Of a stretch of 64,000 nucleotides of DNA, positions 12,379 to 15,523 are shown piece after piece. Position numbers and translations under genes: made by a program. Each line of letters opens with the position of its first letter. The first letter of the stretch is position 1. The stretch covers positions 1 through 64,000 of the forward strand of contig WGME01000004.1 in NCBI GenBank assembly GCA_016125225.1, read 5' to 3'. Below the pieces are notes generated by a model. It was given only the letters and a program-made list of their open reading frames with translations. It was not told where the DNA came from and did no database searches. This DNA comes from a bacterium. GTDB taxonomy: Bacteria > Planctomycetota > Planctomycetia > Planctomycetales > Planctomycetaceae.

Positions 12379-13548
12379 ATGCCGACGTTGATTGATCTTG
12401 ATGCGAATGCCACCACGCGGCCGCTGGCCGAAGTCGTGGAGGTAGTCGCGCGGCATCTGTCCGAGACCTGGGGTAACCCCGGCAGTCGGCATGCTCTCGG
12501 TCGGCAGGCCCGGCGGGTGCTGGAAGAATCGCGGGAATCGATCGCCACCATTCTGGGGGCTCACCCCGACGAAGTCCTCTTCACCAGCGGCGGCACAGAA
12601 TCGAACAACACCGCCATCTTCGGCCTCGCCCGAGGCAACTCCGGCACGATCGCGATCTCTCCCGGCGAACACCCGGCGAATCTCGAAGCCTGCCGGGTGC
12701 TGATGCGACGCGGATGGAAACTGGAACGGCTGCCGGTGGATGAACAGGGAAGGGTCAAGGGTTTAGGGCTGAGGGCTGAGGGCCGGAACAATCTTGAGAC
12801 TGACTCTGAACCCTCAACTTTCAACCCTCAACTCTTCGCCATCCTTCTTGCTCACAACGAAACTGGTGTCATACAGGACGCCGCGTTGTTGCGGGAACTG
12901 GCGACGACATCAGAGTGCCCGTGGCATCTCGATGGGGTTCAGGCGGTCGGCAAGATTCCGGTGAACTTTCATGAACTCGGAGCGACCACGCTAAGTTTCG
13001 GGGCTCACAAATTTCATGGACCACGCGGCATCGGGGGTCTGCTGGTCAAACGGGGCACGCGGCTAACTCCGTTGCTGTACGGCGGGCATCAGGAACAGGA
13101 ACGGCGGCCGGGGACGGAAGCGGTCCCGTTGATTGCCGGGATGGCGAAGGCCTTGGAATTGTGGGACGCGGACCGCAATCGCCGAACAACTCACCTGCAA
13201 ACTTTGCGCGACCGGCTGCAGCACGGGTTGAGTGAGCGATGTGCGCCGGTCGTGGTGAACAGCGAACATGCGGCGAGATTGCCAAATACGTTGAACATCG
13301 CGTTTCCGGGGTTGGATGGGGAAGCGCTGCTCGTGGCGCTCGATCTGGCGGGGCTCTGTTGTTCGCTGGGGACGACCTGCGCGAGTGGGTCGACCGAACC
13401 GGCCCCCATTCTTGTCGCGATGGGCTGCCCGCCCGATGTGTATCGGTCGAGCGTACGGTTCTCGCTCAGTCTGTGGAATACCGAGGCAGAAATCGACGAC
13501 GCCATCGACCGGGTCGTGACAGTAGTCGGCCGCATGCGGAAACTGTAG
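12379..13548 (+). CDS. Cysteine desulfurase (NifS/IscS-type, class V aminotransferase) with an inserted repeat
   Basis: A 389-residue PLP enzyme that removes sulfur from cysteine for Fe-S clusters or thio-modification. Visible motifs are FTSGGTESNN (68-77), EHPANLE with the PLP-stacking His98, HLDGVQAVGK (D185), the Schiff-base lysine in SFGAHK (K211) and the sulfur-carrying cysteine in SLGTTCASGSTEP (C334). The C-terminal pattern is NifS-like. Residues about 127-152 are abnormal: a loop that normally reads roughly DLDALRAALRP is replaced by a longer stretch encoded by a degenerate inverted repeat (12759-12834), and the frame is kept. No other Fe-S gene is adjacent. The leader contains palindrome copy C. 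Confidence 0.88.
   Translation: MPTLIDLDANATTRPLAEVVEVVARHLSETWGNPGSRHALGRQARRVLEESRESIATILGAHPDEVLFTSGGTESNNTAIFGLARGNSGTIAISPGEHPANLEACRVLMRRGWKLERLPVDEQGRVKGLGLRAEGRNNLETDSEPSTFNPQLFAILLAHNETGVIQDAALLRELATTSECPWHLDGVQAVGKIPVNFHELGATTLSFGAHKFHGPRGIGGLLVKRGTRLTPLLYGGHQEQERRPGTEAVPLIAGMAKALELWDADRNRRTTHLQTLRDRLQHGLSERCAPVVVNSEHAARLPNTLNIAFPGLDGEALLVALDLAGLCCSLGTTCASGSTEPAPILVAMGCPPDVYRSSVRFSLSLWNTEAEIDDAIDRVVTVVGRMRKL
12759..12834. repeat. Inverted stutter repeat inside the cysteine desulfurase gene
   Basis: Left arm 12759-12782 (units of GGGCTGAGGG) and right arm 12811-12834 (units of CCCTCAAC) match as reverse complements at 18 of 24 positions, around a 28-base spacer. Within each arm short units repeat in tandem. 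The tract reads in frame through the gene. Similar C/T-rich units recur at 41904-41938, sharing CTCAACTCTT exactly (12827-12836 and 41913-41922). Confidence 0.65.
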
Positions 13549-13775: not shown

Positions 13776-14819
13776 ATGTTCGACGCAGTCCTGGAACGCA
13801 CCCGCGCGGAACTGGTGGATGAACCGTTCTGCCTGCTGCCTGAATTGCAGTTTGCCTGGCTGGCCGCTTGCCGGTTGACGGCTCCCTCCAGTCGTTACGA
13901 TCTCAAGTCAGCATTGAGTGTCATTATTGGCGAACGTAGCTCCGGCAAGTCGATGCTTGTCCGTCGAGCGTTGCGACAACAACCTCGTCGTGCTCAGCGG
14001 GCGACTGTAGCCATCTTACAGCCGGAAGACTTTGACACCGAAGAGGCACGCTTGTTCTGGCATCAGACCTCGACTCCACCTGCGGACTTGCAGGCCGTAG
14101 TGTTGGAAAACCTTGATGAGTGGAATGGTCTGGAAGAGATCTCCGACCGCCTGGCCCATGTGTTCGATATCTGGTCACACATGGGGCTGAGAATCGCAGT
14201 CACACTTTCAAAGTCTCCCAGTGCCGTGGCTGGGTTATCACCGCGACTTGTCAGTCGATTGCATGGTGGCCTGCTCGCCCGCATTCCTGGATTGGCAGCG
14301 GAAAGTCGTCACGTCTATCTGAAGTGGGCCGCGGAATTGCAGCCACTCTCTCTCAGCGATGACGTTTTGTTGTGGTTACTCTCTCAATCCAAGGGCACCG
14401 TTGGTTCGCTGCGGGAACAGATTGATCGACTGGCCATGGCCTACCCTCCGCCCGCGCGGGTCACGGAACTAGCCGAGTTGCAGCAGTTGCTGGCTTCCCA
14501 GCAGGAACCGCGGTTGTCACTGTCAGCCATCGCTCAGGAAGTCGCGACAGAGTTTGGCATCTCGACTCAGGAGTTACGCACGTCGACCCGCGTGCAAAGC
14601 TGCCGCATTCCACGGCAATGTGCCATGTGGCTGGCCCACGATATTGGCGGTTGGCCCATGACAAAAATCGGGCACTACTTTGGACGACGAACGCATGCGG
14701 CAGTTTCTTACAACTGTCGCAAGTTGCAAGATGAAGTCGCCCTGGTCCCTTCGCTCCGCCAACGCTTGGAGCATCTACGCACGCGGTTACAGAAGCAACT
14801 GTGGAGTGATTGTGGATAA
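13776..14819 (+). CDS. dnaA: Short divergent DnaA (replication initiator)
   Basis: The 347-residue protein lacks DnaA domains I and II and consists of the AAA+ and DNA-binding domains. Walker A is GERSSGKS (52-59). The Walker B position reads AVVLENLDE (107-115), with EN in place of the usual DD/DE. The sensor/box VII region IAVTLSKSPSAVAGLSPRLVSRLHGGLLARI (140-170) fits DnaA, including an arginine-finger candidate. Domain IV (about 248-320) has RIPRQCAMWLAHDI and IGHYFGRRTHAAVSYNCRKL, close to the DnaA signature with its conserved His. The ATP-bound initiator would recognise DnaA boxes, and four such sites follow directly, one overlapping the stop codon. It could be the main DnaA or a paralogue; the adjacent boxes favour the former. 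Confidence 0.82.
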   Translation: MFDAVLERTRAELVDEPFCLLPELQFAWLAACRLTAPSSRYDLKSALSVIIGERSSGKSMLVRRALRQQPRRAQRATVAILQPEDFDTEEARLFWHQTSTPPADLQAVVLENLDEWNGLEEISDRLAHVFDIWSHMGLRIAVTLSKSPSAVAGLSPRLVSRLHGGLLARIPGLAAESRHVYLKWAAELQPLSLSDDVLLWLLSQSKGTVGSLREQIDRLAMAYPPPARVTELAELQQLLASQQEPRLSLSAIAQEVATEFGISTQELRTSTRVQSCRIPRQCAMWLAHDIGGWPMTKIGHYFGRRTHAAVSYNCRKLQDEVALVPSLRQRLEHLRTRLQKQLWSDCG

Positions 14820-15115
14820 CCGGGAGGCAAACGGAGCATGCAAACGGCAGGCTTCCACACAATGCTCAGTTCGACCGACACATTGTCGGTATCTCCAGCA
14901 GTTATCCAGCAAGCATCGACGTTCTGATCACACAACGTTGACCAGATATCGACAGCAACACTCTGTGGATAACGCGACGGAACTGCAAGAAAAAAAGGGG
15001 CTTAAAGACCAGACCCGGAAGTTATCCACGTTCGCCGACAGCCTTCTAATACGACTGCTGTTCTTTAAACTCTTTAGAAAGGCAAATTCGAAATCAGCCC
15101 CCGAAAACTGACGCA
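14811..15115. other. Candidate chromosomal origin (oriC) with DnaA boxes
   Basis: The non-coding stretch after dnaA holds perfect TTATCCACA boxes on the minus strand at 14811-14819 and 14964-14972, an 8/9 match TTATCCACG at 15022-15030 and a 7/9 match TTATCCAGC at 14902-14910. An A/T-rich segment at about 15041-15095 (TCTAATACG..., TTCTTTAAACTCTTTAGAAA) is a possible unwinding element. The combination of dnaA, clustered boxes and an adjacent A/T-rich stretch is the standard bacterial oriC layout. GC-skew was not computed. Confidence 0.7.
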
Positions 15116-15523
15116 TTACCTTTTGAACTTGAAGCCGTAGTCCCAATAGGCCTCTTCCGGAATCGGACGACGACGCACAACCAATCCCGTCAGCCAGCGA
15201 ACCTCGCCATCGGGGATATGCCAGCCGATTGTGATACCGTCAGGCAGCTCGGCCACTCGACTGATAAAACCCATGCCACCCTGCGAAAGACTGTAACACC
15301 AGGCTTTGGGAAGATCGTCGCCATTGCGAGGCAGTATCTGCTGTGTTTCCGAAGGAATGAAGAGCGAGATTTCGTTTCGTAAAGGACGCCGCACCGATTG
15401 ACGCAACCGACCAAACTGATGCTCCGAACGCACGTGCAACTTTTCAAAAGTTTCCAGCACTCGTTCAAGAGCCATATGCTCTTGAACGGAGATCTGTCGT
15501 GGTCCGTGAGTCAGAACAGTCAT
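15116..15523 (-). CDS. PilZ-domain protein (cyclic-di-GMP receptor)
   Basis: A 135-residue cytoplasmic protein. After a helical N-terminus it has RLRQSVRRPLRNE (39-51), containing the RxxxR motif, and SLSQGGMGFISRV (about 79-91), matching the (D/N)xSxxG element of PilZ domains; both contact c-di-GMP. The C-terminal strands (GWHIPDGEVRWLTGLVVRR...YWDYGFKF) complete the barrel. It lies 30 bases downstream of the HD-GYP gene on the same strand, so the two are probably one operon that reads and degrades c-di-GMP. The flagellar operon begins on the other side of the HD-GYP gene, which suggests a link to motility. It is convergent with dnaA across the candidate origin. Confidence 0.82.
   Translation of the reverse strand: MTVLTHGPRQISVQEHMALERVLETFEKLHVRSEHQFGRLRQSVRRPLRNEISLFIPSETQQILPRNGDDLPKAWCYSLSQGGMGFISRVAELPDGITIGWHIPDGEVRWLTGLVVRRRPIPEEAYWDYGFKFKR

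Follow-up and report, generated by a model that had tools for sequence, protein, structure and literature searches.

DnaA is usually regarded as a single homo-oligomeric protein responsible for locating the origin, opening it and recruiting the helicase. The stretch of DNA analysed here, referred to as the window, comprises 64,000 nucleotides and represents the first 64 kb of contig C37 in a planctomycete draft genome of 6.35 Mb in 42 contigs. It encodes a short DnaA without domains I and II next to a candidate replication origin. This raises the question whether the region behind the gene is the chromosomal oriC and, if so, how a DnaA of this kind could take part in initiation.

A preliminary description of the window had proposed a DnaA of 347 residues with AAA+ and domain IV signatures, lacking domains I–II and carrying EN at Walker B. 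The open reading frame, Pfam searches and alignment all bear this out (Table 1). Domain IV, the helix-turn-helix domain, was recognised by Bac_DnaA_C (PF08299) with 63.5 bits at a cut-off of 31.5, the AAA+ model Bac_DnaA reached 19.4 bits and stayed under its cut-off of 23, and the domain I model DnaA_N gave no match at E-values up to 1. In the alignment Walker A is intact (GERSSGKS) and LVSR aligns with the arginine finger of the long DnaA copy of the same genome. Walker B reads EN in place of DD, the stretch ahead of it is shortened, the sensor-2 arginine is gone (GTVGSLRE versus GNIRELEG) and the recognition motif of domain IV is altered to GRRTHAAV. Among 30 short proteins, the P-loop GK[ST] is retained in all, the arginine finger in 29 and the sensor-2 arginine in 24. 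Their Walker B pair is ED in 25 of 30; most long copies and most DnaAs of other phyla have DD. The window's protein is the most eroded member of the short set and has the longest branch in the tree.

With the NCBIfam DnaA equivalog TIGR00362 the short protein scored 102.2 bits, under the cut-off of 343.9. Hda is likewise a diverged DnaA-type AAA+ protein without domains I–II. However, Hda has no domain IV, which the short DnaA possesses, and the Hda model TIGR03420 gave 48.1 bits, far under its cut-off of 194.8. An AlphaFold2 model, based on an alignment of 25 sequences, had a mean pLDDT of 87.6. The eleven top Foldseek matches to this model are DnaA chains (probability 1.00, best E 1.6e-14), led by 8btg, a cryo-EM origin-unwinding complex; Hda chains are also found among the structural matches. 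A DnaA-type AAA+ fold is thus predicted by the structure model, although the sequence model remained below its cut-off. Whole-chain TM-scores were about 0.5, which may reflect a different inter-domain angle or model error, and the target-normalised value was 0.72 against one domain III chain. In the genome collection the best matches of the short-DnaA family come from contigs labelled Planctomycetaceae or from other planctomycetes, followed by ordinary DnaAs of other phyla. A defence system at the locus was considered and dropped, as PADLOC matches reached only about 14 bits.

Table 1. Features in and around the short dnaA locus; positions are those of the window.
Feature	Position	Strand	Remarks
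Cysteine desulfurase-like gene	12379–13548	+	PF00266, 5.4e-58; directly upstream of short dnaA
Short dnaA	13776–14819	+	347 aa; AAA+ (domain III) and domain IV only
DnaA box TTATCCACA	14811–14819	-	perfect; overlaps the short dnaA stop codon
Weak box TTATCCAGC	14902–14910	+	two mismatches; conservation not evident
DnaA box TTATCCACA	14964–14972	-	perfect
DnaA box TTATCCACG	15022–15030	+	one mismatch; precedes the trio-like run
Spacer, box to trio-like run	15031–15042	+	12 bp
DnaA-trio-like run	15043–15057	+	CTT CTA ATA CGA CTG (complement 3'-GAA GAT TAT GCT GAC-5')
A/T-rich stretch, likely unwinding region	15044–15093	.	68% AT; window mean 42.7%
PilZ-like gene, convergent	15116–15523	-	PF07238, 20.3 bits, below cut-off 22.5; bounds the intergenic region, outside the origin

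The origin-like element occupies the 296-bp space between two convergent genes. Four box-like sites, two of them perfect, with an A/T-rich stretch behind them had been described at this place, and all were recovered. Within the region no 50 bp are richer in AT than the A/T-rich stretch, whose AT content is reached by 0.06% of all 50-bp segments of the window. Counted over the full 64 kb, boxes are not unusually frequent: allowing up to one mismatch we found 10, compared to a shuffle mean of 7.6, and 22 of 100 shuffles reach 10. Three of these ten boxes lie within 220 bp. Perfect boxes occur 23 times in the genome, and the only pair less than 1 kb apart is the one behind the short dnaA. The basal unwinding rule, as described in PMC8287927, consists of a box with at most two mismatches, a spacer of 0–16 bp and at least three NAN trios. 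The window contains this arrangement in its minimal form, with TTATCCACG, a spacer of 12 and the three trios CTT CTA ATA; 4 of 100 shuffles score as well. The trio run is broken at the fourth triplet in the window and at the third in relatives. Among 16 loci, 10 gave no match to the rule, and in L047, L052 and L053 the best-scoring match is at a different place.

We then considered conservation of the element in five genomes (G000, G001, G002, G003 and G035, from genera g1, g2 and g34), which were chosen from 50 loci for their boxes. In all five the box spacing is in phase and CTA.TA.GACT is invariant; the trio-like block had not been selected for. ATCCAC of the last box is found in all five as well, none of them having been picked with a sequence pattern. 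Identity between the short DnaAs of genomes sharing this phase can be only about 30%. Perfect boxes behind the short dnaA, relative to the genome total, amount to 2/23 in G000, the window's own genome, 3/18 in G001, 3/20 in G002 and 2/5 in G003. Another perfect-box pair, 154 bp apart, was noticed in G002 (contig 1, 21357–21519) on a contig carrying neither dnaA.

From the last box and the trio-like block we built the pattern TCCACAN{8,20}CTAMTAMGACT and scanned 150 genomes of the family. Of 12 matches, 11 follow a short dnaA in the same orientation, 205–206 bases from its stop codon in seven cases and 216, 332, 405 and 961 bases in the others; one match (G179) is unrelated. The total is at chance level, as the reversed control matches 13 genomes. 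The pattern count was therefore dropped as evidence and adjacency to the short dnaA alone was considered. The exact pattern is absent from 3 of 11 g34 genomes and from the window, which is one base off in the box. The stop-codon box is located in the same place in 9 of the 11 relatives found by the pattern, as TTATCCACA, TTATGCACA or TCATCCACA. In an alignment of 12 genomes, two stretches outside the pattern are invariant in 12/12, TGTG.A in the first box and TGTGGA in the second. Since 11 of the 12 rows were found by a pattern containing TCCACA and CTA.TA.GACT, conservation of these two blocks cannot be proven from this alignment and the five-genome alignment was used instead.

A box cluster beyond chance and conserved in relatives was found for genera g1, g2 and g34. 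When sites with up to one mismatch are counted over the 600 bases downstream of the short dnaA, 41 of the 50 loci listed do not reach two. As only 9/50 have at least two, we do not extend the box layout to most of the family. A search for repeated 9-mers behind the short dnaAs returned box repeats in close genera and nothing common to the family. Other repeats were observed at single loci. Where boxes might be expected, three direct repeats 15 bp apart are located 52–92 bases behind the short dnaA in L042 (G006; CGATCACTGGT-like) and 23–61 bases behind it in L031 (G008; CGGCCCCTG). Their copy numbers are not above those of shuffles; it is the regular spacing that stands out. L028 (G031) carries six AGAGTCGGG-like 9-mers on both strands 16–246 bases behind the gene, where 20 shuffles give at most three. 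In both L043 and L044 (G047 and G053) the short dnaA is followed at about 40 and 175 bases by a pair of TTTTCCACA boxes, 133–134 bp apart.

A cysteine desulfurase gene directly upstream on the same strand is shared by 5 of 27 testable loci (L050, L054, L191, L194 and L196). Of 33 related loci, 15 have dnaN immediately downstream of the short dnaA in the same orientation, and 18 lack it there; loci with at least 2.5 kb of downstream sequence were counted, after removal of five with too short a flank and two duplicate records. gyrB comes after dnaN in 14 of the 15 dnaN-linked loci; a Pfam scan of two loci confirmed both genes. Of 13 single-contig genomes of the class, 9 have dnaN no more than about 2 kb from the short dnaA (in G045 this distance runs over the record ends, the record being treated as circular). 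No genome among the 13 has it within 30 kb of the long dnaA, the closest distance being 37 kb in G034. Judged from this linkage in relatives, the short gene corresponds in position to the ordinary dnaA found at oriC. In a tree the short proteins fall on one side of a branch with an SH-aLRT of 99. We argue descent from gene position and not from the tree, because its branches are very long (1.55 for the window's protein) and it is unrooted; dating of the duplication was dropped for the same reasons. Position 1 of complete relatives was likewise discarded as evidence for oriC, since such records are rotated to dnaA by convention, as stated in three planctomycete genome papers.

The helicase operator DciA has been assigned to a dnaA-dnaN-recF-gyrB-gyrA operon in several phyla, Planctomycetes included (PMC5109545). 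In the window's genome dnaN, dciA and gyrB are found together on contig C24, away from the short dnaA, so that the origin cluster has been broken here. The two perfect boxes of C24 lie more than 25 kb from dnaN. By reading, the first 100 bases of the dnaN/dciA/gyrB contig (L299) seem to be the terminal part of a transposase gene of the IS3 type, and the cluster may have been broken at this point.

Because of the phased conserved element and the dnaN/gyrB linkage in relatives we read the locus as oriC. Activity of the region 14811–15093 as chromosomal origin is very probable on these sequence grounds, and the candidate oriC proposed earlier is strengthened accordingly.

A GC-skew minimum at the locus had also been suggested as a check. 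We sampled six complete relatives with 20 stretches of 20 kb (400 kb) each, placing the origin at dnaA and the terminus opposite, and applied a one-sided permutation test (p uncorrected). With the short dnaA as origin p was 0.005 for G045, 0.04 for G015, 0.12 for G047, 0.42 for G034, 0.90 for G003 and 0.94 for G009. With the long dnaA the values were 0.997, 0.79, 0.14, 0.33, 0.99 and 0.95 in the same order. Skew thus backs the short dnaA locus clearly in G045, whose skew terminus is close to the long dnaA, and weakly in G015. It gives no backing in the other four sampled genomes, including G003, the closest complete relative, and in most of the six skew favours neither locus.

parS-like sites with up to one mismatch were searched in 15 genomes. 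Three of four such places in G047 and 3/3 in G039 are within 66 kb of the short dnaA, and 4/4 in G042 lie about 115–121 kb from the second DnaA. The remaining genomes had isolated sites or none, with none near the short dnaA in G045. In the window's own family only isolated one-mismatch sites or none were found and no clusters; parS was dropped there as an origin marker.

Several of these results were counted against oriC as well as against the sharing of initiation proposed below: the skew, the box layout in 9/50 loci, the chance-level pattern total, the minimal form of the unwinding rule and the location of dnaN-dciA-gyrB on another contig. That the best skew case, G045, has no parS-like site near its short dnaA was counted against oriC. 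The box cluster could alternatively be a site which titrates DnaA or regulates it, similar to datA, with the true origin elsewhere. The skew of G003, G034 and G009, which does not indicate the short dnaA, would agree with this, as would the separate dnaN-dciA-gyrB cluster. However, a titration site does not account well for boxes, spacer, trio-like run and AT-rich DNA arranged in phase between convergent genes, nor for the origin gene cluster surrounding the same gene in relatives. Moreover, perfect boxes are missing from the 16 kb around the long dnaA and are distant from dnaN on C24, and the skew of G045 fits the short dnaA. We consider a titration site very improbable.

If the locus is oriC, the missing domain I has to be addressed. 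The preliminary description had concluded that its loss would remove the usual DnaB/DiaA contact, so that helicase loading may work differently. In that form the inference finds no support: contig C36 of the same genome encodes a long DnaA in a frame of 557 aa, with Bac_DnaA at 157 bits, Bac_DnaA_C at 90 bits and DnaA_N for domain I at 28.4 bits (cut-off 24.6), and a DciA homologue is encoded as well. This DnaA passes the NCBIfam DnaA cut-off with 370.6 bits versus 343.9. A canonical dnaA with its own box cluster in another place had been envisaged as evidence against the locus. The gene was indeed found, but no perfect box lies in the 16 kb around it; three one-mismatch sites were detected.

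Two DnaA genes are not peculiar to the window's genome. A search with the short DnaA gave a match in 59/59 genomes, its own included, and a single match in 12. The long DnaA gave two matches in 23/23 chosen genomes, including all 21 of the class. In 20 of these 21 the second frame has 337–390 aa, and in G042 it has 450 aa. In a sample of the phylum 85 of 119 genomes have at least two DnaA matches; outside the window's own family most frames are long among the matches listed.

We compared the paralogues with models built from 24 DnaAs of other phyla, scoring 17 pairs and additionally G161 and G044 as whole stretches, which makes 19 genomes. The long copy has the higher AAA+ score in 19/19, with a mean difference of 135 bits over the 17 pairs. 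For domain IV the short copy scores higher in 15 of 19 (13/17 in the first set, mean 11 bits, Wilcoxon p 0.03). The window's pair belongs to the four that deviate, the short copy reaching 69 bits versus 85 for the long one. In the family, long copies carry PRMLAMFLARKHT...HSTVMSAERKV or a similar sequence; short copies and other phyla tend towards PRQ.AMYLARELT...HSTVxHACR. In G047 and G053 an ordinary bacterial recognition helix is found in the short DnaAs and not in the long ones. Between G001 and G002, the one pair compared, dN/dS was 0.06–0.11 for the short gene (AAA+ 0.13, domain IV 0.035) and 0.12 for the long gene, indicating purifying selection on the short dnaA in this pair of relatives.

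These comparisons bear on the idea that the long DnaA does everything at oriC, the short gene being sidelined and the DNA downstream of it conserved for the origin alone. The long protein has every DnaA domain and passes the NCBIfam cut-off, which the short one fails; towards genus mates the window's long copy is about 70% identical and its short copy 33%. On the other hand, a sidelined gene would hardly show a dN/dS similar to that of the long gene, even if from one pair only, or keep a frame of at most 390 aa in nearly all class genomes probed, and it is the long copy whose domain IV is less typical in most genomes. We regard a sidelined short DnaA as improbable.

We favor, with modest confidence, an oriC at which initiation is shared between the two DnaA paralogues. 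The ordinary oriC-linked dnaA would have been reduced to domains III–IV, giving the short gene ahead of oriC, and its product would read the boxes there. In most relatives the short DnaA may still help to form the DnaA filament opening the trio and AT-rich region. The full-length DnaA would join the complex, bringing domain I and a well-kept ATPase, and the helicase would be recruited through its contact, together with DciA. DNA binding by either DnaA, mixed complexes and the division of labour are what we infer from the anatomy of locus and proteins. The erosion of the window's short DnaA and its domain IV score below that of the long partner were counted against shared work. If sharing is true, the separation of origin opening from helicase loading could be tested in nature, beyond engineered truncations, and annotators would know by which of the two dnaA genes the origin can be recognised in Planctomycetia.

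A stronger version, which we put forward tentatively, is that the class split DnaA in two, initiation depending on a hetero-oligomer as it does for ORC-type initiators. The gene residing at oriC would have kept origin recognition while losing the helicase-loading front and much of the ATPase; the relocated paralogue would have kept front and ATPase while its DNA-reading domain drifted.

The main rival to shared initiation accepts oriC and makes the short DnaA a regulator, which occupies boxes or caps the filament of the long DnaA and so limits initiation. Its action would be comparable to that of a dominant-negative DnaA truncation or of an Hda equipped for DNA binding. This repressor role is strongest for the window's own, most eroded member, whose Walker B and sensor 2 are degenerate. 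The lower AAA+ score of every short copy, the widely retained arginine finger, the lowest dN/dS in domain IV and the availability of a full-length DnaA in the same genome are consistent with it. A mere DNA binder, however, would need neither the P-loop kept in every short protein nor the sensor-2 arginine kept in most, and the short gene takes the place of dnaA in the dnaN-gyrB cluster. A regulator, and equally the comparison with dominant-negative DnaA or Hda, appears rather unlikely to us.

The sharing of initiation can be compared with known systems. As in an ordinary dnaA-oriC-dnaN origin with boxes and a basal unwinding system (BUS; outlined in PMC8287927), a DnaA homologue is found beside boxes, a 12-bp spacer, a trio-like run and an AT-rich stretch, and dnaN and gyrB adjoin in many relatives of the window. 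In contrast to such an origin, the DnaA linked to oriC is here without domains I–II and its ATPase is eroded; the run of trios is interrupted, and a second full-length DnaA is encoded elsewhere. Domains III–IV of E. coli DnaA have been reported to unwind oriC in vitro while being unable to support replication, as helicase loading needs domain I (PMC5448010). The domain make-up is that of the short DnaA. A natural III–IV protein at oriC together with a full-length paralogue and DciA would amount to the same division as in these fragment data. The E. coli fragment is a laboratory truncation, whereas the short DnaA occurs naturally and has been retained throughout the class, next to a full-length paralogue. 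Full-text searches of open-access articles, judged by titles, abstracts and selected passages, gave no description of a short oriC-linked DnaA in Planctomycetia. Several dnaA genes in one planctomycete chromosome are known from Kuenenia stuttgartiensis, which has three copies, the one beside dnaN and gyrB having been chosen as origin by skew (PMC7709395). Unlike here, the accessible portion of that report makes no mention of a copy without domain I or of a division of labour. Two nearly identical DnaA genes were observed in G144, a genome of another class, at 3884250 and 4404858 of its single contig.
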